In this document: in pieces, positions 5,719-64,000 of the stretch
How positions within the stretch are numbered: position 1 is the first letter of the stretch
How the letters are laid out: every line of letters begins with the position of its first letter
Assembly: GCA_002840435.1 (NCBI GenBank)
Contig: PHAT01000005.1
Coordinates: 672,460-736,459, forward strand
Reading direction: 5' to 3'
DNA: 64,000 nt
From: Deltaproteobacteria bacterium HGW-Deltaproteobacteria-6
GTDB lineage: Bacteria; Desulfobacterota; Syntrophia; Syntrophales; Smithellaceae
The notes under the pieces: model-generated
Seen by the model: only the letters and a program-made list of their open reading frames with translations
Database searches by the model: none
What the model was told of the DNA's origin: nothing
Translations under genes and position numbers: made by a program

Positions 5719-7098
5719 CTAGGACTTCGTTAACTTGTCAAGCTTTCTGACGAAAGCGGCAATATCCCTGGACATCGTAGTGAGTTCCGCCGATACTGCG
5801 GCGGTTTCCTCGGCACTGGCGGCATTGGCCTGAATGACCGTGTTGATGTTGTCAACGGCCCGTTCAATTTCCGAAATTCCGAGCGTTTGATCCGCCGAGG
5901 ATTCACCGATGACTTTCAGTTGCCGGGTAAGATGATCGGATACTTCCATAAATTTCGTAAACGCTTCATCGGACGTGACGGCAAAATTCGTGCTTTTCTT
6001 GATGTTATCGATGCTGCTCGAGATAACGTCCTGCGTGTTTTTCGAAGCTTCGGCTGATTTGCGGGCCAGGTTCCGCACTTCGTCGGCAACGACGGCAAAC
6101 CCCACGCCGGTTTCGCCGGCCCGGGCGGCTTCAACGGCCGCGTTGAGGGCGAGGAGATTGGTCTGGAAGGCGATGGAATCGATCGTTTGGACAATGCGGG
6201 CCGTTTTGACACTGGCTTCGTTGACCTCATTCATGGAGGATCTCAGCCCCTTTAGAGACGTGTTGGTGGAGGCGACAATTATGCCCGTGTCGTTCATGAG
6301 CTTCTGAGCATTGGAAACGATTTCGGCATTTTTTCTGGTCTTATCTGAAATTTCTTTGAGCATGGCGGTGGTTTCCTGCATGGAGGCCGCCTGTTGTGCC
6401 GCTCCTTCAGCGATGCTCTGGCTTGATGAGCCGATGGTTCCTGATATTTCGGTCAGTTTAAGCGACGCCTCACGGACGTCATCGACGGAATCGACCAGCT
6501 GTTGATTGGCCCTTCGCATGGCCGTGATGATAAGCAGTGATAAAACCGAACAGAGGACAATCCCGATGAAACCGTCGGCGAAGCTGCTTTTGACGATGCT
6601 TAATGCTTCGTTGCTGACTTTATCACGGACGGCAAAATAGTAGACGAAAAAAACACCAAGATACCAGACGGACGTCATCAAAATGGCCTTCCGTTCACAG
6701 AAGAGGGTGGCAAAGACAATGGCAATATACATGAAATGAACATAGCTGACCAACCCTTCATAGATGACAGGCGAGTTGTATTTAATCAGGAATCCGGCGG
6801 ATGTACAAAGCACCTGGACCACCAGCATGCTATAGGCTGCTGCTTTATATTTCCCCGCCCGGATCAGGAAGATGGCGATAACGGCGATGGATTCGATAAC
6901 AAAAATCGGAGCAATTGCTTTTTTGAATTTTTCTGCGTCAGCAGAAAGAAGGAAGAGTCCTAAAACGATAAACATAATAAAAGCGCAAAAACTGAAGAGA
7001 TAAAGAAACCATGCCCGCTGCTGTGTCAGATGATCTTTATCCTTAAAACGGTGCATGATGGAATTCCGCATTCCAGCCCAAGCGTTATTTGCAGCCAT
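5719..7098 (-). CDS. Methyl-accepting chemotaxis protein with membrane-embedded sensor region
   Basis: 459 residues. The first ~200 hold about six hydrophobic segments with no sizeable periplasmic loop, so sensing is probably within or near the membrane. From ~220 to the end is the coiled-coil signalling domain, with the highly conserved tip around residue 320 ([18 protein letters not shown], then [13 protein letters not shown]). I see no HAMP consensus and no C-terminal CheR-docking pentapeptide. AAAGGA precedes the ATG. It stands alone, with no che genes nearby. A second, broken receptor gene lies at about 25 kb. Confidence 0.9.
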
Positions 7099-12962: not shown

Positions 12963-14510
12963 ATGATGAAAGCGGAGAGCGGCGCAAAACAGAACGGATG
13001 GGGCGGGGAAACAACCGCTTTTCTTGCCCTGTTCCTGGACAATGCCGGCGTGCTGATCTTTTTAAACGCCATCCTGGTCTTCACTTTCAACTATCCCGTG
13101 GATATTATCCTGACGCGCATGATTCCGGGCACGGCCATCGGCGTCTTCATGGGCGATCTTGTTTATACCTGGCTGGCCATCCGGTTGAAAAGAAAAACCG
13201 GACGTCCGGATGTCACGGCAATGCCGCTGGGTCTGGATACGCCGTCCACCATCGGCATTGCTTATGCGGTCCTGGGGCCTGCCTACGTTGTCACCCGTGA
13301 CGCTGAGCTTGCCTGGCACATCGGCATGGCCACGCTTTTCATGATCGGCGTCGTTAAAATAATTATCTCTTTTTTCGGCGGATGGATTCAGCGCAATATT
13401 CCCACAGCGGGGCTTTTGGGTTCCATCGCCGGCATCGGATTGATGCTGCTCGGCTTTCTGCCGCTCATCGAAATATTCAATGAGGCTGTGGCCGGCATGG
13501 TAGCCATGGGGCTGATCTTTGCCGCGCTCTACAGCAAAATGCGCCTGCCCGGGCGAATTCACGGCGTTTTGGCAGCGGTGCTTTTCGGCACGGTGATTCA
13601 TTTTGCGCTGGGCTTCAGCGGCTGCCTGCCGGAGTATCAGGCGCCCTCCTGGGAGATGCATCTGTGCCTGCCGCTGTTTTCCGTCGATTTTCTCAAAACC
13701 CTGCCGCAGAGTATTCAGTATCTGCCCATTGCCATTCCCTTCGGTATTCTGACGATCATCGGCGGCATCAATAACACGGAAAGCGCCCGCCTGGCGGGCG
13801 ACCAGTACCGAACAAGGGATATCCTGCTGACCGAGGCTTTGACGTCGCTCATTTCGGCTTTCTTCGGCGGCGTGGCGCAGACGACGCCTTATATCGGCCA
13901 TCCCGCCTATAAAAAAATGGGAGCGACCTGGCGTTATACGCTGGCCACCGGCCTGGCCATCGGTATCGGCTCCATGGTCGGGCTGATGTCGCTGTTTGTC
14001 AGCCTCATTCCGCGCGCGGTTATCGCCCCCATTTTCATTTTTGTCGGTTTTGAGATCATTCATCAGGCCTACTCCGAATCGCCTCCATCCCATTCTCCGG
14101 CGGTGAGCCTGAGCTTTCTGCCGGTCATTGCCAGCCTCGTGGTGATTATTCTCGGACAGTTCACAGGCGCCATGAACATGACACCCGGCGAACTGCCGCT
14201 GCGTCTGCAACACCTGCATCAGACGCTGACCATGCTCAGCAACGGATTTATTCTGACAGGGCTGCTCTGGGGCAGCATGCTCGCCTTCCTGATCGATCAC
14301 CGGGCGAAACTGGCGGCATTATGCGCCGCCCTCTGCTCGCTGCTCACGCTCTTCGGCGTCATTCATTCCGTCATGCCCACCGGAGAACTTTATCTGCCCT
14401 GGCGGATGGCATCAAACGCTCACTACATGCTCGCCCTGGCCTATCTGGCACTTGCGGGCATTTTGTTGATATTGACGGGGAAAACGGATAAAGAACAAAC
14501 ACGATCATAA
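12963..14510 (+). CDS. NCS2-type (xanthine/uracil/guanine family) permease-like membrane protein
   Basis: About 515 residues with 12-14 hydrophobic spans. The frame runs upstream to a TTG at 12933, but the paired ATGs at 12963 and 12966 look the better starts. Family-like regions are LFLDNAGVLIFLNAILVF near the N-terminus, GGINNTESARLAGDQ around the eighth span and GGVAQTTPYIGHPAYKKMGA around the tenth, corresponding to the substrate-contact segments of nucleobase permeases. The substrate is unknown; the usual QNxGxxxxT motif is changed to QTTPYIGHP, so it may not carry a nucleobase. It is transcribed divergently from meaB and precedes a CoA-transferase fusion gene by 86 bases. Confidence 0.72.
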   Translation: MMKAESGAKQNGWGGETTAFLALFLDNAGVLIFLNAILVFTFNYPVDIILTRMIPGTAIGVFMGDLVYTWLAIRLKRKTGRPDVTAMPLGLDTPSTIGIAYAVLGPAYVVTRDAELAWHIGMATLFMIGVVKIIISFFGGWIQRNIPTAGLLGSIAGIGLMLLGFLPLIEIFNEAVAGMVAMGLIFAALYSKMRLPGRIHGVLAAVLFGTVIHFALGFSGCLPEYQAPSWEMHLCLPLFSVDFLKTLPQSIQYLPIAIPFGILTIIGGINNTESARLAGDQYRTRDILLTEALTSLISAFFGGVAQTTPYIGHPAYKKMGATWRYTLATGLAIGIGSMVGLMSLFVSLIPRAVIAPIFIFVGFEIIHQAYSESPPSHSPAVSLSFLPVIASLVVIILGQFTGAMNMTPGELPLRLQHLHQTLTMLSNGFILTGLLWGSMLAFLIDHRAKLAALCAALCSLLTLFGVIHSVMPTGELYLPWRMASNAHYMLALAYLALAGILLILTGKTDKEQTRS

Positions 14511-24898: not shown

Positions 24899-25441
24899 TT
24901 AAAACTCCTTTTTTCCCATACCGATCAGGACCGTCTGTTTTTTTAGGGTTGAACCGGTCTTGTCTGTTTTTGCGGCAAACTTGAATGCCTCGCCCGCATC
25001 ATCTTGCTCCGTCTTGAAAATGGACATGACACTGGCCAGATTTTCCGCGTTGCCGGCGGTCTTTTGCGTGGTGATGTTCATCTCGGCAATGGCCCGGCCC
25101 ACCTGATCAATGCCCTGGGATTGCTCCTTGGAGGCTACAGCGATTTCACTCATCAGATTGACTACTTTATTAGCACTGGCTGTGACCTCACTGAATGCAG
25201 TGCTTGTAATACCCACCAGACTTTCTCCGTTCTTGACCTTGTTAACAATATCTCCGATCAAATCGGAGGATCCTTTTGCCGATTCCGTCGCCCTCATGGC
25301 CAGATTCCGCACTTCGTCGGCCACGACGGCAAAGCCCGTTCCTGCTTCACCGGCGCGGGCCGCTTCCACGGAGGCGCTGAGCGCCAGCAGATTGGTCTGA
25401 AACGCGATCTCATCGATGCTTTTGACAATTTTCTGGGTCTG
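24899..25441 (-). pseudogene. Methyl-accepting chemotaxis protein, 3' fragment only
   Basis: Translating from 25441 gives about 180 residues of a receptor signalling domain: [20 protein letters not shown], the tip [20 protein letters not shown], then [21 protein letters not shown] and the C-terminal coiled coil. The sensor, membrane and first half of the signalling domain are missing. Immediately upstream of the first homologous codon is an in-frame TAA, and homology switches to an unrelated gene on the other strand at the same base. An internal ATG could in theory start a 156-residue piece, but without the descending helix it would not signal. The natural terminator is retained. Confidence 0.85.
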
Positions 25442-54985: not shown

Positions 54986-55660
54986 ATGGGTGGAAAAAAG
55001 AAAATTAATCCAGGGAGTCTCTATCTTGTTCTCAGCGGGGCATGCGGCAGCGGCCGGGGCCCCCTGGAGATCGCAAAATGGGCTATTGCCGGAGGCATCG
55101 ATATTCTTCAAATGCGGGAGAAGGATATGTCGCCTCAGGAATTATCAGCTTTAGGAACCGCCCTTTCCTGCTTGTGCCGGAAAAGCGGCATCATTTTCAT
55201 CGTCAATGACGATCCCCGTCTTGCCGTGGACCTTGACGCCGACGGCGTCCATATGGGGCAGGAAGATCTGACCGCATGCAGTGTCGATACGGTTCGGCGC
55301 ATTGTCGGACCCCGCAGGATTATCGGCCTGTCGACTCACAACCCCGATCAGTTTCGTGAAGCCCTTGCCCGGGATGTCGATTATCTTGCCTTTGGCCCCG
55401 TCTTTCAGACCAAAACAAAAAGTTATCATATTGGAACGGCGGATATCCGTCAGATCGTTGCCATCACGTCGAAGCCCGTTTTTTTTATCGGCGGCATTCA
55501 GACTGCCAATCTGGATATTCTCATCAAGAAAGGAGCGACGAATGTGGCTTTGATCAGGGATATCATGGAGGCGGAAGATGTGGTGGAAAGAACAGGATGG
55601 TACAAACGAAAGCTAACGGGGGCTTCCGGCCGGATGTTTTTGAATGGCCCGGAAAAGTAG
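54986..55660 (+). CDS. thiE: Thiamine phosphate synthase
   Basis: 224 residues. The TIM-barrel family motifs are DILQMREKDMSPQEL, FIVNDDPRLAVDLDADGVHM, GQEDL, RIIGLSTHNPDQF and YLAFGPVFQTKTK. It joins HMP pyrophosphate to the thiazole phosphate to make thiamine phosphate. The ATG lies 9 bases after an AAGGGG that the riboswitch hairpin can hide. It is first in thiESGHF. Confidence 0.93.
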   Translation: MGGKKKINPGSLYLVLSGACGSGRGPLEIAKWAIAGGIDILQMREKDMSPQELSALGTALSCLCRKSGIIFIVNDDPRLAVDLDADGVHMGQEDLTACSVDTVRRIVGPRRIIGLSTHNPDQFREALARDVDYLAFGPVFQTKTKSYHIGTADIRQIVAITSKPVFFIGGIQTANLDILIKKGATNVALIRDIMEAEDVVERTGWYKRKLTGASGRMFLNGPEK

Positions 55661-55671
55661 GAGGAAAGAAT

Positions 55672-55872
55672 ATGCGGATACGCATCAACGGCACGCCGGC
55701 TGCGATAGAGGGAGCCGTTAATCTTGAACAGTTGATCGTTGGCAAGGGACTCATACCGGAGCGGGTTGTCGTGGAGTTGAATCTGCGGATCATACCCCGC
55801 AACCAATGGAGAACGGTTTTGTTAAACGATGACGACGCCATCGAGATCGTCAGTTTTGTCGGAGGAGGTTGA
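55672..55872 (+). CDS. thiS: Sulfur carrier protein ThiS
   Basis: 66 residues with a ubiquitin-like beta-grasp pattern (IRINGTPAAIEG, VVELNLRIIPRNQW, DAIEIVSFVGGG) and the required C-terminal Gly-Gly, which is adenylated and then thiocarboxylated. AGGAGG is 6 bases before the ATG. The stop is almost fused to the thiG start. Confidence 0.93.
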   Translation: MRIRINGTPAAIEGAVNLEQLIVGKGLIPERVVVELNLRIIPRNQWRTVLLNDDDAIEIVSFVGGG

Positions 55873-55874
55873 AA

Positions 55875-56660
55875 GTGAAAGACAGATTGGAAATAGCGGG
55901 ACGAAGGATTGAAAGCCGCCTTTTGGTCGGCACGGGAAAGTTTCCCGGCAATGACGTGATGAGGGAGGCCCTTGCAGCATCAGGGGCCCATATTGTTACC
56001 GTGGCCTTAAGACGGGTGGATGCCGGGGCGATATCGGGAAGCATCCTCGATTTTCTCCCCCCGGAGTGCATTGTCATGGCTAACACATCGGGCGCCCGAA
56101 ATGCCGACGAGGCGATCAGGATCGCCCGCTTGGCCCGCGCGGCGGGCGCCGGCGATTGGATTAAAATTGAAGTCGTTGCGGACAACAAATACCTTTTGCC
56201 CGATAACCTGGAGACGCTGCGGGCGACGGAGAGTCTCGTCAGGGAAGGGTTTGTCGTTTTGCCTTACATGAACCCCGATTTGTCCATGGCTCGTCGATTT
56301 GTTGATTGCGGCGCTGCTGCCGTCATGCCACTGGGCTCACCTATTGGCTCCAGCCGCGGCCTTCGGACAAAAGAACTTGTAGAGATCATGATCCGGGAGA
56401 TTCCCATCCCCGTTATTGTCGATGCCGGTCTGGGTAAACCGTCCCACGCTTGCGAATGCATGGAAATGGGGTGTGATGCCGTGCTGGTCAATACAGCCAT
56501 TGCCATTGCCCCCAATCCCGTCAATATGGCCGCGGCTTTCAAGCTGGCCGTAGATGCCGGCCGCATGGCCTATGTGAATGGCATGGCCCGGCAGACCGAA
56601 ACGGCAAGGGCTTCTTCGCCGCTGACGGGATTTTTGCACGGGGATACCGGTGAAAAATAA
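55875..56660 (+). CDS. thiG: Thiazole synthase ThiG
   Basis: 261 residues from GTG at 55875; GGAGGAGG ends 6 bases before it, whereas a TTG at 55869 touches the site. The (beta/alpha)8 family is clear from SRLLVGTGKFP, EVVADNKYLLPDNLETL, LPYMNPDLSMARRFVDCGAAAVMPLG, PIGSSRGL and DAVLVNTAIA. It forms the thiazole phosphate ring from DXP, dehydroglycine and ThiS thiocarboxylate. Confidence 0.95.
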   Translation: MKDRLEIAGRRIESRLLVGTGKFPGNDVMREALAASGAHIVTVALRRVDAGAISGSILDFLPPECIVMANTSGARNADEAIRIARLARAAGAGDWIKIEVVADNKYLLPDNLETLRATESLVREGFVVLPYMNPDLSMARRFVDCGAAAVMPLGSPIGSSRGLRTKELVEIMIREIPIPVIVDAGLGKPSHACECMEMGCDAVLVNTAIAIAPNPVNMAAAFKLAVDAGRMAYVNGMARQTETARASSPLTGFLHGDTGEK

Positions 56661-56684
56661 TCGTTGAGGGACCAATAGAGACTT

Positions 56685-57803
56685 ATGAGCTTCTATCCTA
56701 TCTTAAATCAATACAGTGATGCAAAGATCGATCACACGATGACCTCAGTTTCCGGAACCGACGTGGAGCGGGCTCTGGCTAAGGATTATCCCGGGGCGGA
56801 TGACTTTCTGGCTTTGCTGTCGCCCGCGGCGGGCGTTTATCTGGAACAGATGGCGCGGCTTTCACAAGATCTGACCCTGCGGCATTTTGGCAGAACGCTC
56901 CAGCTCTATACACCCCTGTACCTGTCGGACTATTGTGAGAACCGCTGCACGTATTGCAGTTTCAGCGCTTTGAATCCGTTTCCCCGAAGGACGCTCAGCC
57001 TGGGCGAGGTGGACCGGGAAGGGGCCGTTATTGCCGCAACGGGGTTAAGGCATCTTCTGATTTTAACGGGGGAGTCGCGGAAGCAAAGTCCCGTCCGGTA
57101 TATTGGCGATTGCGTAGCCGTTTTGAAAAAATATTTTCATTCCATCGCGATTGAAATCTATCCCCTCTCAAAAGCGGAATATGCCGCGCTGATCGAGCGG
57201 GGGGTGGACGGTCTGACGCTATATCAGGAAACATATGATGAATCCGTTTATCGGGACATACACCCTGCCGGGCCGAAACAGGACTACCGTTTTCGGCTGG
57301 ATGCGCCGGAGCGGGCCGCCACAAGCCATATGAGGCAAATCAATATCGGGGCCCTGCTGGGACTTGCTGATTGGCGTAAGGAAGTCTTTGCCCTGGGGCG
57401 TCATGCCCGTTATCTTATGGACCGTTTTCCCGATGCCGACATCGGAGTCTCTGTCCCGCGGTTAAGGCCCCACAAGGGCGCCTTTATACGGGCCTGCGGC
57501 ATGACCGATTCTCATCTGGTTCAGGCGATCCTGTCCCTGCGTCTGTTTCTGCCGCGACTCGGAATTTCGCTCTCGACACGAGAGACGGAGACGTTTCGTG
57601 ATCATTTGATTCCCCTGGGGATTACGCGTATGTCTGCCGGGTCCGTCACCTCCGTGGGAGGCCATGGCCACCGGGCATCAGCGGAAGCCGCTTTGCCTCA
57701 GTTTGAAATTGCGGATCATCGCACCATCGAACAAATGACAGCACTGATCCGCTCCAGGGGTTACGATCCGGTCTTGAGCGATTGGGTGCCCCATGATCTA
57801 TGA
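56685..57803 (+). CDS. thiH: 2-iminoacetate synthase ThiH (radical SAM)
   Basis: 372 residues. The radical-SAM cluster motif CxxxCxxC is CENRCTYC near residue 85, preceded by LQLYTPLYLSDY. Later family blocks are LTGESRKQSPV, GLTLYQETYDESVYRDIHPAGPK and SAGSVTSVGGH. It cleaves tyrosine to give dehydroglycine for ThiG, the anaerobic counterpart of the oxygen-using ThiO. It overlaps thiF by 11 bases. Confidence 0.95.
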   Translation: MSFYPILNQYSDAKIDHTMTSVSGTDVERALAKDYPGADDFLALLSPAAGVYLEQMARLSQDLTLRHFGRTLQLYTPLYLSDYCENRCTYCSFSALNPFPRRTLSLGEVDREGAVIAATGLRHLLILTGESRKQSPVRYIGDCVAVLKKYFHSIAIEIYPLSKAEYAALIERGVDGLTLYQETYDESVYRDIHPAGPKQDYRFRLDAPERAATSHMRQINIGALLGLADWRKEVFALGRHARYLMDRFPDADIGVSVPRLRPHKGAFIRACGMTDSHLVQAILSLRLFLPRLGISLSTRETETFRDHLIPLGITRMSAGSVTSVGGHGHRASAEAALPQFEIADHRTIEQMTALIRSRGYDPVLSDWVPHDL

Positions 57804-58398
57804 ACCCTCTCTTATTCAAAAGATTGGCGCGGCAGGTGTTGAGAGACTTCGGGCAGTCAAAGTCGGCATTGCCGGCGCCGGCGGTCTGGGTTCCAACTGT
57901 GCGCAAAACCTGGTGCGCTGCGGGTTTTTGAGACTCAAGCTGGTTGATTTCGATATTGTTGAGGCATCCAACCTGGATCGTCAATTCTATTTCACTGATC
58001 AAACGGGGATGGCAAAAGTCGACGCCCTCAAAATAAATCTGCTGAGAATCAATTCCGGGCTTGATGTGGAGGCACTTACCGTCAAGATTGGCGAGGGTGA
58101 CGGTACAAACATCTTCGGTGATTGCGATATTGTTGCTGAATGTCTTGACCGTGCTGAGGCCAAGAGCCGGCTTGTTTCGGAGCTATTACCCATGGGAAAA
58201 TTGATTGTCGCCGCTTCCGGCCTTGGCGGTTATGGGGAAACGGACCGGATTAGGGTGCGTAGAATCAGGAATAACCTCGTCATCGTCGGCGATCTTACAT
58301 CCGATATAACAGACCATCCCGCTTTGTCGCCCCGGGTGAGCATTACAGCGGCAAAACAGGTTGACGTCATTCTCGAATATGTCTTGACGTCCCTATAG
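57793..58398 (+). CDS. thiF: ThiF family adenylyltransferase (short form)
   Basis: 201 residues, shorter than E. coli ThiF (about 250). The nucleotide-binding motif GIAGAGGLGSNCAQNLVR, the DFDIVEASNLDRQF block and AECLDRAEAKSRLV are present. The CxxC zinc pairs of the long form are missing, as in the short ThiF subfamily found with ThiSGH in anaerobes. It adenylates the ThiS C-terminus. Last gene of the thi operon; thiC and thiD are not in the window. Confidence 0.9.
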   Translation: MIYEPSLIQKIGAAGVERLRAVKVGIAGAGGLGSNCAQNLVRCGFLRLKLVDFDIVEASNLDRQFYFTDQTGMAKVDALKINLLRINSGLDVEALTVKIGEGDGTNIFGDCDIVAECLDRAEAKSRLVSELLPMGKLIVAASGLGGYGETDRIRVRRIRNNLVIVGDLTSDITDHPALSPRVSITAAKQVDVILEYVLTSL

Positions 58399-58474
58399 CC
58401 GCCGCAGTAACTTATCGGCTGAAGAGTACGACGATTCCAGACCGGGAAATGGAAAACGCCATGCAAAAGAATTC

Positions 58475-59419
58475 TTGTATTTGAATATGACCAGAATGCG
58501 AATTATCACATCCATGATTCCGCTCCTTCCCTCGGTCCAACATCTGGACGGTTATTGTGCCAGCCGGTTTTCTTATCTGACAAAGGATCAATGGCAGCAG
58601 GAAATTCATGCCGGTAAGTTATCTCTGGATGATGTCACAGTTTACGATCCCGCAGTATTGCTGACAGGCGGGGAAGTGCTTTCCTGGGACGGCAGCGGGA
58701 TCATTGAACCGGAAGTCGATGAAAAGTTCACGATCCTCCATGAAGATGAATGGTTCGTCGCTGTCAATAAAACAGGGAATCTGCCGGTCCATCCATCGGG
58801 ACGATATTTCAACCACACACTGACGGCAATGCTGGAGGACCGCTGCGCGCGTAAAGTCTATCCGGTGCACCGCATCGACCGCGAAACATCGGGCGTCATC
58901 CTCCTGGCCTTTGATGGGAGACGGGCCGGTGTTCTATCCGAAGCGCTGGCAGAAGGATCAAAGGAGTATCTGGCGCTGGTGCATGGATATTTCCCTGATG
59001 AAGAGTTGATCGTTGATTTGCCATTAGGGCGTGATACCCAGTCCGCCGTGAGCAAGAAATACAAAGCGTGGCCGGGCGGTGTGCAAAAGGCTTTGACACG
59101 GTTTCGGAAAATTCTCACGGCCGGTGATATGTCGCTTGTCCGGTGTTTTCCCGAAACCGGGAGGCTTCATCAGATACGCGCCCACCTGCTGGCCGCAGGT
59201 TATCCTATTGTCGGTGATAAACTCTATGGAAGGGATGAAACGGCTTTTCTCACCTTCATCAAGCAGGGCTTTACTGCCGGATTGCGGGAGAGCCTTGTGT
59301 TGCCGCGCCAGGCTTTGCACGCGGCAAGGCTGGTCATATTGCATCCGCAGACCGGAAAAGCATTAGTCATCCGTGCGCCTCTTCCCAAAATGTTTGCTGG
59401 GGTGTTACTTTTAACTTGA
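58475..59419 (+). CDS. RluA-family RNA pseudouridine synthase
   Basis: About 310 residues; the frame opens at TTG 58475 and an ATG at 58487 is an alternative. An S4-like N-terminal part (LTKDQWQQEIHAGKLSLDD) is followed by the catalytic domain: VNKTGNLPVHPSG, active-site Asp in VHRIDRETSGVILLA, KEYLALVHG and CFPETGRLHQIRAHL. It converts a uridine in rRNA or tRNA to pseudouridine; the target is unknown. The last third (59082-59399) is repeated at 60873-61191, and the natural last residues FAGVLLLT lie just beyond the repeat edge, so the present C-terminus may itself have been remade. Confidence 0.88.
   Translation: MYLNMTRMRIITSMIPLLPSVQHLDGYCASRFSYLTKDQWQQEIHAGKLSLDDVTVYDPAVLLTGGEVLSWDGSGIIEPEVDEKFTILHEDEWFVAVNKTGNLPVHPSGRYFNHTLTAMLEDRCARKVYPVHRIDRETSGVILLAFDGRRAGVLSEALAEGSKEYLALVHGYFPDEELIVDLPLGRDTQSAVSKKYKAWPGGVQKALTRFRKILTAGDMSLVRCFPETGRLHQIRAHLLAAGYPIVGDKLYGRDETAFLTFIKQGFTAGLRESLVLPRQALHAARLVILHPQTGKALVIRAPLPKMFAGVLLLT
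59082..59399 (+). repeat. Copy A of a ~318-base direct repeat (rluA 3' part)
   Basis: Matches 60873-61191 from TGCAAAAGGCTTTGACACGG to the shared end CCCAAAATGTTTGCTG. The first ~70 bases and the last ~160 are nearly identical; a central block (about 59156-59232) carries around 15 differences, almost all at third codon positions. Copy A is in frame as part of the intact gene. Confidence 0.93.
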
Positions 59420-59524
59420 ACTTTGTATCCAAATTTTAATCACTAAAATTCTTTTCTCAAACTTGCTAGAGAGATATTGTAACATGTTCTATCTTCATGG
59501 AAAGGAAGATTCTCCTCCGGCAGT

Positions 59525-60667
59525 TCATCTATCTCGGCCAATAAATTTCTCAATTTCTGCGATAACGGCAGAGTAAATAACGCGATGCCCCAGCCAGTTC
59601 GGGTGATCATTATTGTTGATGAACACGTTTTTTCCGTCTAGTATGGCCTTTTCCATAGTCGGGTACACATCAATATATTTAATTCCATGCCTCTGAAGTA
59701 TTGATATCACATTTTTTCTGGGTTTATTGAAATCGAGATTATTGTAATCAATTCCTCGTTCCGCTGCAGCAACGACATACATTCTACGGTAAATATCCAT
59801 TCCGTAAAACTCCCGCGGTTCGAGTAACACAACAATCAACTTGCCATCGAGTTTTGATTTCATATCATTAAACAGGGCATCAATAAGTTTATATCCATTG
59901 TTGGCACATCGCTCTATCTGGGGATCTTTATGCTTCATTACATATTTCCATCCGCCATTGATGGAATAAAAATGCTGCTTGAGATAATATGTATAATTAA
60001 GAAACTCTTCCTTAAGTCCTAGCTTGAAAGCTATGTTATTCAACCTGTCTCTGATAAGATCCTTGCTTACAACAAATTTGTTCATGTAAGCAAAATCCGG
60101 GGCATATTTAAAGACATTTTTAAGTGAATCGTCTCTAGGTTTGATGACAATACTGCCGTCCGCATCGCCGAAAGTCACATATTCGTCGGTACTCCAATAC
60201 TGGCTTTGCATCATGGACCCTTCATAGTCGTTACCGAGATTGAAAAAAATGATGCTCAAGCGGGGTTTGAAAGGAGTATTTTTTATTGCGATATACTGCC
60301 TTGCCAAGTCACTTCCGTTTTTACCCGCAATTTTCACAGAATACCTGTTGCCGAAATGATCGCGAATCAATTCCGAAAAGGCGTAACCATGGGCAACGCC
60401 GAAGCCGAACGTCCAGGAATCACCATATAATAGAATATCAGCCGGCTCTGCAGAATGTATGTTGTAATATTCAGGAGGTACAACACGAAATTCAAAACCA
60501 TCTTTGCTGATGACGATGTCATTTATCTTCTTCCCAGCCGGGCTGGTGCAGTGCATTCTAATAAGATTGAGAGTCATGTTTATGATGAATACCGCCGCAA
60601 AAAGGAAGAAAATTCCTAAAACCAACCCGTATGCGTATTTCAAATATTTTATTTTTTTATTGCTCAT
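59525..60667 (-). CDS. Membrane-anchored SGNH-hydrolase-like protein
   Basis: About 380 residues from the ATG at 60667 (a GTG at 60682 is possible). One N-terminal span (YGLVLGIFFLFAAVFIINMTL) leads a periplasmic SGNH fold: block I LLYGDSWTFGFGV with nucleophile Ser, an Asn block (FFNLGNDYEG) and block V with Asp and His in NNNDHPNWLGHRV. Relatives are esterases or O-acetyl transferases of cell-surface polymers. Substrate unknown. The gene is visibly more AT-rich than its neighbours and lies, in opposite orientation, between two copies of the rluA 3' end, so it was probably acquired. Confidence 0.8.
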   Translation of the reverse strand: MSNKKIKYLKYAYGLVLGIFFLFAAVFIINMTLNLIRMHCTSPAGKKINDIVISKDGFEFRVVPPEYYNIHSAEPADILLYGDSWTFGFGVAHGYAFSELIRDHFGNRYSVKIAGKNGSDLARQYIAIKNTPFKPRLSIIFFNLGNDYEGSMMQSQYWSTDEYVTFGDADGSIVIKPRDDSLKNVFKYAPDFAYMNKFVVSKDLIRDRLNNIAFKLGLKEEFLNYTYYLKQHFYSINGGWKYVMKHKDPQIERCANNGYKLIDALFNDMKSKLDGKLIVVLLEPREFYGMDIYRRMYVVAAAERGIDYNNLDFNKPRKNVISILQRHGIKYIDVYPTMEKAILDGKNVFINNNDHPNWLGHRVIYSAVIAEIEKFIGRDR

Positions 60668-60872
60668 AACCCTGTTTTTCACATTCGTTTGAGGTATTGT
60701 TCAGACAAGCGCTGGTACTCAGCAGCATGGTTATCATAAAATTATCGAAAAATTGTTAAGAAACATCTTTTTACGATATCGAGTATATGAAACGTGAACT
60801 TGACTGTCAAGGAAATCCGGTAGCGCCAAGTCAGAGAAGTTGGTCAAACTGGCTTTTCATATCCTGCAGGAT

Positions 60873-61191
60873 TGCAAAAGGCTTTGACACGGTTTCGGAA
60901 AATTCTCACGGCCGGTGATATGTCGCTTGTCCGGTGTTTTCCCGAAACGGGAAGGCTTCATCAGATACGTGCGCACCTGTTGGCTATGGGTTATCCGATT
61001 GTGGGTGATAAACTTTACGGGAGAGATGAAACGGCTTTTCTCACCTTCATCAAGCAGGGGATTTACTGCCGGATTGCGGGAGAGCCTTGTGCTGCCGCGC
61101 CAGGCTTTGCACGCGGCAAGGCTGGTCATATTGCATCCGCAGACCGGAAAAGCATTAGTCATCCGTGCGCCTCTTCCCAAAATGTTTGCTG
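60873..61191 (+). pseudogene. Copy B: truncated, frameshifted rluA 3' fragment
   Basis: A second copy of the rluA 3' part (319 bases). It lacks the catalytic Asp region and any start. Relative to copy A it has a one-base insertion (CAGGGC changed to CAGGGGA near 61059) that breaks the frame. Differences before this point are concentrated in one ~80-base block and are mostly synonymous (for example ACC/ACG, CGC/CGT, CTG/TTG, TAT/TAC), so the copy descends from a functional diverged homolog rather than from recent simple duplication. It runs to 61191, 46 bases before the end of the PagL-like gene. Confidence 0.9.
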
Positions 61192-61236
61192 TTGATCGGG
61201 CAGGTTCAACGAAACGGGGCGGGCCATTCCAGGCCG

Positions 61237-61902
61237 TCAGAATCGGTATTTCAGTCCTATCGCCAGAGCATTGGAGCCGCCTTTATCCGCGAAAAGGCCA
61301 TAGGCGTTTGACCGGTGATGAAGACGGGTGATTAAAGAGACGCGCGAGTATTCAGGCAGCCCCAAGGTTAACTCCATCATCCAATAGGCCAGCCACTTGG
61401 ACGTCGTTCCGTCGTTCATGATTTCAATTTCCGGGTCCGCCGTCGCGTAAGACGGTCCAAGTCCAAAAGCCAAACTGGTATCGATATATTTATCCCACCA
61501 GAACGCATCCCATCGGGCGGTCACAAGCGCGTTCAGCTCCCAATGGTTCTGAATGTTAAAATGCTTGACGACTTGCCCTTCTATCTCAAAACTCGCCATT
61601 TTTTTAAAGGCGCCTATCCGCCTGGCAATGCTGGCCGCCGCAAAATAGGAATTTTTAAAGTCCAGCGCTTCACCGACACCAAAAAAATTTTCCCAATGAT
61701 TGGTCGTCATTTGACCGGCAAAAATGTTTAAATAGTAAGGTTTTTTTTCTGCCTCATCGGCATGGGTAATGACGGGTGAAAAACAAATGATAATCAACAT
61801 GATTGACCATATAAAGCTGACCCTGTTCCGCCGGCTCGCGGCAATAAGCTTTATTTTGAATGGGTTTATTTGATGAAAATATTGATCGGGTATGGATAAC
61901 AT
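61237..61902 (-). CDS. PagL-like lipid A 3-O-deacylase / acyloxyacyl hydrolase family outer-membrane protein
   Basis: 221 residues. A signal-type hydrophobic segment ends near THADEAEKK (an unusually long N-region precedes it; GGAGATG supports the first ATG). The rest alternates beta-strand-like aromatic stretches (YLNIFAGQMTTNHW, WDAFWWDKYIDTSLAFGLGP) and ends in Phe (GLKYRF), as in small outer-membrane barrels. The active-site-like motif RLHHRSNAYGLF, followed by GGSNALAIG, matches the PagL His-Ser region. It may remove an acyl chain from lipid A. It is next to the SGNH gene island, hinting at a surface-modification locus. Confidence 0.78.
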   Translation of the reverse strand: MLSIPDQYFHQINPFKIKLIAASRRNRVSFIWSIMLIIICFSPVITHADEAEKKPYYLNIFAGQMTTNHWENFFGVGEALDFKNSYFAAASIARRIGAFKKMASFEIEGQVVKHFNIQNHWELNALVTARWDAFWWDKYIDTSLAFGLGPSYATADPEIEIMNDGTTSKWLAYWMMELTLGLPEYSRVSLITRLHHRSNAYGLFADKGGSNALAIGLKYRF

Positions 61903-62232
61903 TAAACCACATCTCCTTTCAGAAACAGGGTTTCAATTATTGCCTCATGCCATCACCCATACAAGGGGAGCCGAATTAAATTCCTTGAGACTGATATTTG
62001 CGTCTAATTCATGAAAAAGTCAAGAGGCTGTGTTGATGGATGATTATTAACAAAAGCAGCAGTTCGCGGGTATTGCGGATGCCTGACTGCAGAAAGTTGA
62101 GAATAATCCGGTGGCAAAATAACATTGCAGACAAAATATGAATAGGCAGCCGGTTCTCTTCGGTTCCGGTTGACGAGATCCCATGTGCCGTCATGTGCCC
62201 CCGGGGCTTCAAGGCGGCCTGGTGCCCCAAGC
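61903..62232. other. Intergenic region, no gene seen
   Basis: 330 bases upstream of the PagL-like gene and after the SET-domain gene, both on the minus strand. Only small hairpins (CCGG...CCGG near 62148-62171; GCCCCCGGGGC near 62200) are visible, with no clear U tract. Confidence 0.5.
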
Positions 62233-62709
62233 CTAGCTTTTTACGTCCAGCATGGTTCCACGGCAATTGGCCGCGCCGCACAGGCAGGCGTGTTCCTTTT
62301 TGACCCTGGTGGTTTTACGGCCTTCGATGGTCAGGCTGTAGTCGTAAAAGAGTTCCTCGCCGGGGTCGATATCGCGCACAGCATTAAGAAAGACGCGGTA
62401 ACCGTCCTGACAGGCTTCCAGATTCGGCTCGCAGGAATGGTTGATCCACCGGGCCGAGTTGCCGTCGTACTTGGCGTCGATGACATGGCCGTCGTCCAGA
62501 TGAAAGTAAAACGTATGGTTGGGCTGGCTGGGGTCGTGGGGGTGCCGGGCCAGAGCCTTGCGCCAGGTGATGATTTCTCCCTTGTATTCCAGAACTCTCT
62601 CGCCTTCCCGAATAGGTTTGACGGCGTAGACGCCCTTTCCGTGAATACCCGACTTGCGCACCTGTGTCCGGCGGCCGGCGGTTGAGGATATTTTGTTTTT
62701 GCTTGGCAT
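62233..62709 (-). CDS. SET-domain protein-lysine methyltransferase
   Basis: 158 residues. The SET core is complete: GIHGKGVYAVKPIREGERVLEYKGE (SAM-binding GxG and Glu-Tyr), DGNSARWINHSCEPNLEACQ (the NHSCxPN knot) and GEELFYDYSL (catalytic Tyr). A post-SET cysteine cluster (CLCGAANCRGTML) with the knot Cys should bind one zinc. Such eukaryote-like enzymes occur sporadically in bacteria; the target protein is unknown. It is monocistronic. Confidence 0.92.
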   Translation of the reverse strand: MPSKNKISSTAGRRTQVRKSGIHGKGVYAVKPIREGERVLEYKGEIITWRKALARHPHDPSQPNHTFYFHLDDGHVIDAKYDGNSARWINHSCEPNLEACQDGYRVFLNAVRDIDPGEELFYDYSLTIEGRKTTRVKKEHACLCGAANCRGTMLDVKS

Positions 62710-62896
62710 CGTTTGATCAGGACCTTCATGTGAATTGGTGGGCGTATATACAAGGAACGACCTTGCCGGTCAAGACCAATTTTACCATGACCTAAGATAT
62801 GATCCTGCTGTTTTTCTTACAGTTCATTTTGCAGATACTTATTAAATTAATTTGAACACCGGATGTTAAAGCGGGCGTAGTTTTCCAGGAAATTGT
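62710..62896. other. Intergenic region, possible small RNA on the plus strand
   Basis: No ORF. It precedes a strong plus-strand terminator although no plus-strand gene is present. AT-rich -10-like sequence (TATTAAATTAAT) near 62838-62850 could start a short transcript. Confidence 0.3.
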
Positions 62897-62942
62897 AATG
62901 CCCGGATACAATCATTCACTGAAACATATCCGGGCATTTTTT
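62897..62942 (+). terminator. Plus-strand intrinsic terminator with no obvious gene
   Basis: AATGCCCGGATA (62897-62908) pairs with TATCCGGGCATT (62927-62938), followed by six T. On the minus strand the U tract is weak, so it points to plus-strand transcription. Confidence 0.75.
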
Positions 62943-62995
62943 GAGATAATCATGATGGGTTAAGTCAGCTTTGACTCTTTCACACGCATTCTTTT

Positions 62996-63301
62996 TCAAC
63001 GAATCTGAATGCTGAAGTTCGGCAAATACAAACTGAACCCGGGTTGATGAGGTTCATAAACACGCACAACGGGCTGCGAGGCATAAACAGGAATTCTTTC
63101 CACAATCACCGGCTGACGATAAGGCCTCTGATAATAATGATGATCACGATAATCTCTGTGATTATATTGGTGATGTATTCGGTCTTGCCTGCCGCGATCG
63201 TCAAAGCGCCGGCCATTTCCCCAGCCCGGATCCGCTAATGCGGAAAAAGTAAAACCCGTAACGACTAGAATTGTGGCAAATGCCATGGTTAATTTTTTCA
63301 T
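62996..63301 (-). CDS. Small secreted His/Tyr/Arg-rich protein
   Basis: 101 residues, family not recognised. A signal peptide (MKKLTMAFATILVVTGFTFSALAD) is followed by a low-complexity region (RIHHQYNHRDYRDHHYYQRP) and a short aromatic C-terminus (PGFSLYLPNFSIQIR). The His-rich part could bind metal ions. GGAGAATG lies before the ATG. It resembles other small deltaproteobacterial secreted proteins of unknown role. Confidence 0.7.
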   Translation of the reverse strand: MKKLTMAFATILVVTGFTFSALADPGWGNGRRFDDRGRQDRIHHQYNHRDYRDHHYYQRPYRQPVIVERIPVYASQPVVRVYEPHQPGFSLYLPNFSIQIR

Positions 63302-63578
63302 TGTTCATTCTCCTTTCGCTTACCTTTCGTTGCTTTTGTATAACGCATATCTCATGCCAGGCAAATGGTGGCGAGCAACAGCCTTAATATTATTTGATTA
63401 TTTTAAATTTCTGGATTGTCCGGCGACAGTTCTGCCAATTATTAAACATAAAAGGTGGTTCGGAAGTATTCGATCTGAGTACGCAGATGGGTCGTTAGTA
63501 TCCATGGTTGGTAAACGGCAGCTGCATGGTTCCGCAGCCGTGTTTAACAGTCGGAAAAACAGGAAGCGCATCCTGAGA
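63302..63578. other. Intergenic region, nothing recognised
   Basis: 277 bases between the His/Tyr-rich gene and the end of the metallo-beta-lactamase-fold gene, both on the minus strand. No ORF, RNA or clear terminator was identified. Confidence 0.4.
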
Positions 63579-64000
63579 TTAAGCGGCGGTATAGAACAAT
63601 ATGTCGTTGATCAGGCTTTCCTTCAGTGCCCCGTCGCGTTTGAGTTCCTGGAGGTACACATAGGTTTCGTTGAGCGCCATGAACTTATCCCAGTCGTCCC
63701 AATCAGCCGCTGCCTCGCCGATTACCTCCGCGCAGATGGCATAGGTTGTTCTGGGCTTGGTGCTCAGGTTTTTCCGGAGCGCTTCCTTTTTCAAGGCATG
63801 ATGCGCGCGGATTTCCCGAATGCGCTCTGCAAGGCCGCTGAAAGAATTTCCATGCCCCGGATAGATGGTGGCAATCGGCAGCTTCTCAACAACGGTGAGC
63901 GACTCCAGATAGTTTTTCAGCGGCTGAAAAATTTCATCATAAATATTGGGGCTGAGACTTGGCGCGATATAAGGCAGGATATGATCGCCGGCCAGCAGCA
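63579..64000 (-). CDS. Metallo-beta-lactamase-fold hydrolase (C-terminal part; gene runs off the window)
   Basis: The last 140 codons of a gene that begins beyond base 64000. LLAGDHILPYIAPSLSPN supplies a metal-bridging Asp and IYPGHGNSFSGL a late His ligand, as in the glyoxalase II-like MBL family. A C-terminal helical domain follows (AERIREIRAHHALKKEAL ... DILFYTAA), of the kind seen in MBL proteins with a winged-helix tail. The substrate cannot be judged from this part. Confidence 0.8.
   Translation of the reverse strand, partial: LLAGDHILPYIAPSLSPNIYDEIFQPLKNYLESLTVVEKLPIATIYPGHGNSFSGLAERIREIRAHHALKKEALRKNLSTKPRTTYAICAEVIGEAAADWDDWDKFMALNETYVYLQELKRDGALKESLINDILFYTAA

Follow-up and report, generated by a model that had tools for sequence, protein, structure and literature searches.

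A putative hydrolase gene between two copies of the rluA 3' end in a deltaproteobacterial genome, and similarly built small inserts elsewhere in it

Gene gain without a transposase, an integrase or a tRNA site is considered common, and it leaves few traces. The stretch of 64,000 nucleotides analysed here (hereafter the window; positions 672,460 to 736,459 of the 940-kb contig PHAT01000005.1, hereafter C5) from Deltaproteobacteria bacterium HGW-Deltaproteobacteria-6 raises the question of how a single gene for a putative SGNH hydrolase came to lie between two copies of the 3' end of rluA, a pseudouridine synthase gene. The genome is a draft of 53 contigs, with 4,086,018 bases and a contamination of 4.16%. 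Judged from its sequence, the locus has the pattern called insertion with long target duplication, with long direct repeats on both sides of the SGNH insert. This kind of insertion is already known, and its recurrence within one genome is the interesting part. The features on which the argument depends are as follows:

58475 to 59419, plus strand: rluA, an intact gene for an RluA-family pseudouridine synthase (NCBIfam TIGR00005, 201.1 bits against a cut-off of 192.7)
59082 to 59399, plus strand: repeat copy A, the rluA 3' end, 318 bases
59158 to 59233, plus strand: diverged block, with 15 of the 17 substitutions between copies A and B
59400 to 60872, no strand: inserted AT-rich segment, G+C (GC) content 0.388, single copy in the genome
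59525 to 60682, minus strand: putative SGNH/GDSL-type hydrolase gene, tail-to-tail with rluA (sub-threshold Pfam match plus motif columns)
60873 to 61191, plus strand: repeat copy B, a displaced rluA 3' fragment of 319 bases with a +1 frameshift near 61058
61192 to 61236, no strand: tail of copy B, TGATCGGGCAGG.., similar to the nearest relative from the rluA stop codon on

The preliminary description of this DNA had reported that the rluA 3' end recurs at 60873-61191, and the repeat is real: the two copies, of 318 and 319 bases, are 94% identical and are 1791/1792 bases apart from start to start. They differ by 17 substitutions and by one extra base in copy B near 61058, which shifts the frame of B and is the +1 frameshift noted earlier. 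A diverged centre between nearly identical ends had likewise been described correctly, with substitutions at 0 of 76 sites in 59082-59157, 15 of 76 in 59158-59233 and 2 of 166 in 59234-59399, or 2 of 242 outside the block. The gathering of 15 of the 17 substitutions in 76 of the 318 bases has a hypergeometric probability of 1.4e-8, and 0 of 200,000 shuffles placed 15 substitutions inside any 76-base window, so that chance clustering is excluded. Within the block, 12 of the 13 changed codons are synonymous (substitutions at the three codon positions, 2/1/12), and where 1 amino-acid change is observed, 15 random substitutions simulated there caused 9.6 on average. The divergence between A and B in the block is 0.197, and the ortholog mean over the same block is 0.18. 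Because nearly all of its changes are synonymous, the block looks like functional rluA of another lineage; origin by decay of a free copy is ruled out by the 12 synonymous codons of 13. Copies A and B were the only ones found in the 4.09-Mb genome, and a third rluA copy there as donor was thereby rejected. A diversity-generating retroelement with template and variable repeats was also rejected, as the changes are not limited to adenines in either copy.

The inserted gene had been described as an AT-rich SGNH-hydrolase gene in reverse orientation. Its strand and composition are as stated, the GC content of 0.394 placing it at the 1.9th percentile of the 688 open reading frames of at least 150 amino acids on the contig, while its family assignment is softer: the match to Pfam Lipase_GDSL_2 (E=1.1e-5, 26.4 bits) falls below the curated cut-off of 32.9. 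The blocks GDSW, NGSD, GND and HPN are present, in columns that are largely conserved, not invariant, among 17 distant homologs aligned; the assignment thus rests on the sub-threshold match together with the largely conserved GDS, GND and HPN columns. The protein carries an N-terminal hydrophobic segment (judged by eye) and the motifs GDSW, GND and DHPNWLGH. Within 59400-60872 there is no integrase or recombinase, and the SGNH gene is the sole open reading frame of at least 80 amino acids. The segment has no match elsewhere in its own genome, and the gene has none in 19 same-genus genomes (11 with completeness of 90% or more and contamination of 5% or less, 8 incomplete or more than 5% contaminated). 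Among 196 relatives, 6 have a weak match, as do 10 among 394 genomes of the phylum (own genome excluded; 3 genomes in both sets); plasmids and phages gave none, and neither did the close relatives looked for in IMG/VR. As 55000-64000 contains no tRNA and gave no Rfam match, an element of either sort at this site was set aside.

The same locus in relatives suggests what preceded the insert. Neither the SGNH gene nor a second rluA piece was found in any of 21 further loci (L044-L064; tblastn, E<=1e-4), nor was the PagL-like gene that follows copy B; these loci carry a single rluA copy without an insert, at genus or family distance only (nearest 82% at the nucleotide level). Two neighbours of the repeat matter here:

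61237 to 61902, minus strand: PagL-like gene, outside the repeat bracket, without a match in the 19 same-genus genomes
62233 to 62709, minus strand: SET-domain gene, which most of the relatives examined have as convergent neighbour of rluA

Of 17 deltaproteobacterial loci (L044-L059, L064), 11 have the SET-domain gene downstream of rluA and facing it, and some of the others end early. By eye, the gap between rluA and SET in three relatives holds no clear gene in L050 and a different gene in L048 and L051. Because rluA of most relatives faces SET without either, the SGNH and PagL-like genes look like additions; the interval has probably gained both, with only the SGNH gene between repeats. A late arrival of the SGNH gene at the rluA locus is supported by these comparisons.

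The ends of the two copies bear on which of them is native. Both cease to follow the orthologs' consensus at one and the same base, after ATGTTTGCTG, and the 14 aligned orthologs run on beyond ATGTTTGC (or close variants) with GA.., mostly DFIR. The final codons of rluA, GVLLLT*, are unlike those of all 14. Thus, the gene called intact earlier is a complete reading frame scoring above its family cut-off, but even it is without the usual last ~10 codons and ends in a foreign-looking tail; a native C-terminus was not found elsewhere in the interval. The tail of copy A has no resemblance to the relatives' sequence (shuffle p 0.70). That of copy B shares 18 of 24 bases with the nearest relative, L048, and contains TGATCG, a hexamer that starts at the rluA stop codon in L044, L045, L046 and L048. 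On weak statistics, the tail of B may be read as the native one, shortened by a deletion of about 28 bases, and that of A as foreign.

The explanation that we favour, with a little more confidence than doubt, is one-sided homologous acquisition, either by homology-facilitated illegitimate recombination or by Campbell integration; the donor, the entry route and the order of events are the parts of it that we infer. A fragment from a relative, comprising the 3' part of that relative's rluA followed by the SGNH gene, would have entered the cell, where one of its ends would have paired by homology with the resident rluA and the other would have been joined within the resident 3' region, as in homology-facilitated illegitimate recombination. 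Alternatively, the fragment could have been circularised and have entered by a single crossover. Either way, rluA would be left complete but with a foreign tail, followed by the SGNH gene and, beyond it, by the resident 3' end, displaced together with the sequence downstream of it; the block of 76 bases would be a patch of the other lineage's allele, and the displaced copy B would have acquired its frameshift afterwards. One-ended events of homology-facilitated illegitimate recombination are on record (PMC3240628; PMC5361080), and transformation of B. subtilis is described as giving mosaic outcomes in which short, discontinuous donor patches are possible (PMC13344027). The preliminary description had proposed that a homolog from a related strain came in with the SGNH gene by a Campbell crossover and was then partly homogenised. 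Late arrival, a tract of another lineage and homology-driven entry fit that proposal; its preference for a circular over a linear one-ended entry and its later homogenisation do not follow, as a short donor patch laid down in a single event fits equally. Regarding uptake, the ComEC and DprA families are present in the genome, but they are common among controls (10 and 11 of 14 genomes, including E. coli), so that natural competence of the host is possible at most.

Whether the build recurs was addressed by a repeat scan of 2,430,824 of the 4,086,018 bases (plus strand; 12-kb windows; repeats of at least 50 bases and at least 80% identity, with a gap of at least 250 bases). It gave 21 rows, from which 8 rows, equal to 7 loci with insert GC below that of the flanks, were kept by eye. 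The 13 dropped rows were tandem paralogs (C5:910463, 910934 and 911595; C6; the second C14 row), two C17 rows beside masked bases, short pairs of ordinary GC (C1:72003, 517902 and 645702; C2:109439; C5:252384), and the first C14 row, which has one copy at the contig start and the other beside masked bases and may be a further case. The loci kept were:

C5:731541: the rluA/SGNH locus itself
C5:868214: 214 bases, 97.7% identity, 3' end of a peptidase M15_4 gene; acyltransferase-3 cargo, tail-to-tail like the SGNH gene (L150:12534-13658 and 13882-14430; C5:868214-870096)
C1:433840: 56 bases, 96%, 3' end of a response-regulator/SpoIIE phosphatase gene; VapBC-type pair with a MazE-like antitoxin and a PIN domain (L195:13840-14716; C1:433840-434716)
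C1:646545: 84 bases, 89%, tRNA-Lys 3' end and the sequence behind it
C2:58011: 68 bases, 100%, 3' end of a small unnamed open reading frame, up to the codon before the stop
C5:445379: 112 bases, 90%, plus 69 bases, non-coding; BrnT toxin and CopG-type antitoxin (L132:5379-6603; C5:445379-446603)
C5:14203: 173 bases, 93%, non-coding

The repeat is thus the 3' end of a protein gene in 4 of the 7, the end of tRNA-Lys in 1 and non-coding in 2, and in the four protein-gene cases its border lies at the stop codon or no more than about 30 nucleotides before it. The acyltransferase-3 case has an empty site in the relative G012 (86%), where the aligned neighbours are about 90 bases apart; its displaced fragment keeps a stop codon and flank like those of G012, and the flank of the intact M15_4 gene matches none of three relatives aligned. 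The VapBC-type pair occurs at 89% identity in another species of the genus, G004 (L281), directly after the stop codon of a different gene (purQ-like by eye) and without repeats. The similar build of these inserts points to a known, rarely described route for the uptake of single genes.

A dispersed hairpin repeat of ~110 bases lies at C5:869762-869872, 445506-445614 and 484803-484912, with many copies in the genus; among the matches listed, it occurs in at least 12 other places in the genome and many in relatives. At the BrnT/CopG locus, only one of the repeat copies contains it. Its position beside the acyltransferase insert had suggested an integron cassette, a reading rejected as the hairpin is a dispersed repeat for which an Rfam scan of two stretches (L150, L132) gave no match, and the SGNH segment has no other match in the genome.

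One-sided acquisition has the advantage that a relative's DNA carrying a gene end together with cargo would explain borders at coding ends, since relatives resemble each other in the ends of their genes but not in the spacers, and would explain the block of another lineage too. Several observations weigh against it. Its main weak point is the 166 bases to the right of the block, where only 2 differences are not expected if the 3' part of A were all donor sequence (~20% divergence), so that the account needs the further assumption of a patchy or corrected exchange. Within the block, all 14 orthologs are nearer to A than to B, but at positions 59269 and 59300 the orthologs agree with B in 7 and 12 of 14 and with A in 4 and 2 of 14; the foreign patch is therefore not assignable to one copy with certainty. 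The likeness of the B tail to relatives is weak in shuffles (p 0.04 as a sum over relatives, 0.23 for the best single one), a donor of the SGNH segment was not found among relatives, phylum genomes, plasmids, phages or the IMG/VR relatives, the TGA stop of the intact M15_4 gene is found in the relative G010 too, and the native flank of the fragment in the SpoIIE case is no more than suggestive.

The fully identical C2 repeat shows that divergence alone is not what sets the border there, and with this it also speaks for the rival that survives best, a true insertion with long target duplication, in which the resident 3' end was copied at a staggered break or replication restart, the SGNH DNA was joined between the copies, and the block is a later, unrelated patch. 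The geometry would be identical and the mere 2 differences in 242 sites outside the block would be natural; however, the block then requires a separate event, and blind copying should often reach the intergenic region, whereas the four protein-gene borders never pass the stop codon (four cases only, and so suggestive). We regard this account as unlikely, with a minor but real chance of being right.

Less probable still is that the segment was left behind by an integrase-driven element whose targets are gene 3' ends and which restores each end from a copy that it carries, in the manner of prophages and islands at tRNA genes, with the integrase lost or acting in trans. Restoration of the gene with a new tail and displacement of the old one, the tRNA-Lys 3' end among the repeats and the borders close to stop codons would all suit such an element; the segment is nevertheless without an integrase, and targets and repeat lengths (56-319 bases) vary between cases, no specific search for a shared core sequence having been made. 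An assembly chimera of co-occurring strains is very improbable, even though this 53-contig, 4.16% contaminated draft is probably metagenome-assembled, as are the named relatives L044-L059 without exception: the two foreign junctions are sharp and fall outside the shared sequence, where reads should have crossed them, the contig is 940 kb long, and a similar anatomy recurs, once with an empty site in a relative.

The SGNH and PagL-like genes had been taken together as one surface-modification cassette. This is not supported, since copy B separates the two genes, only the SGNH gene is bracketed, and the GC of the PagL-like gene is not outlying (16.6th percentile). The resemblance to PagL itself stands, although PF09411 scores 22.1 bits, below its cut-off of 23.0; the C-terminal HHRSNAYG resembles the PagL His/Ser motif, and matches occur in 8 of 98 other genomes, none within the genus. 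Upstream of this gene, 61904-61958 recurs at 81-82% at C4:278280 and C3:311731 and contains a possible AAACCC/GGGTTT hairpin (by eye). Directly upstream of rluA lie thiG-thiH-thiF (55869-58398), to which none of the 21 relatives' loci has a match in the upstream sequence covered, up to 6 kb and, for 4 of the loci, under 5 kb. Elsewhere in the window, a 132-base direct repeat of 80% identity occurs at 6064-6195 and 25298-25429, 19 kb apart, its second copy being similar also to stretches near C5:850 and 863 kb.

As for consequences, copies A and B share perfect-match stretches of 76 and 99 bases, through which RecA is predicted to be able to remove the SGNH gene again by looping-out; rluA would stay in frame only if the crossover fell to the right of the indel. 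The SGNH or acyltransferase-3 protein may act on surface polymers, and switching of such genes is conceivable. It is a bolder conjecture, and as a whole an improbable one, that this genome practises recurrent integrase-free gain and loss of single genes, with cargo at the end of a core gene, a doubled 3' end and loop-out by RecA, such that SGNH and acyltransferase-3 would be reversible surface switches like Salmonella wzy and toxin-antitoxin cargo would be held by addiction. One genome with several such traces, one of them with an empty site in a relative, offers material for studying how single genes enter core loci, and for asking whether such repeats let surface genes be switched when phages attack.

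Among known systems, one of close build is insertion with long target duplication (Nobusato et al. 2000, Gene 259:99), outlined in later accounts as inserted gene(s) between long direct target repeats and, in H. pylori, as often linked to restriction-modification genes (PMC1643837, PMC4978471). The SGNH gene between long direct repeats of its target rluA conforms to this, but the cargo here is SGNH, acyltransferase or toxin-antitoxin genes, the host is a deltaproteobacterium, and the synonymous patch of another lineage within one rluA repeat is not part of the pattern as outlined there. With homology-facilitated illegitimate recombination the locus would share one homologous and one illegitimate end, and old 3' material past the new cargo, as in the displacement of type VI secretion effectors in V. 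cholerae (PMC5361080); unlike in that case, the displaced piece here is the end of a housekeeping gene, and the mechanism is deduced from sequence only. In Salmonella Typhimurium, the single O-antigen gene wzy is reported between 113-base identical intergenic repeats with no known recombinase; its excision was shown, a circle was found, the gene was regained in co-culture, and a role in reversible phage resistance was proposed (PMC12074656). The present locus resembles it as a single gene, here with a candidate surface function, between direct repeats of ~100 bases or more with no known recombinase, and differs from it in that the rluA repeats are 94% identical and the locus is known from its sequence, whereas excision and circularisation of wzy have been demonstrated.

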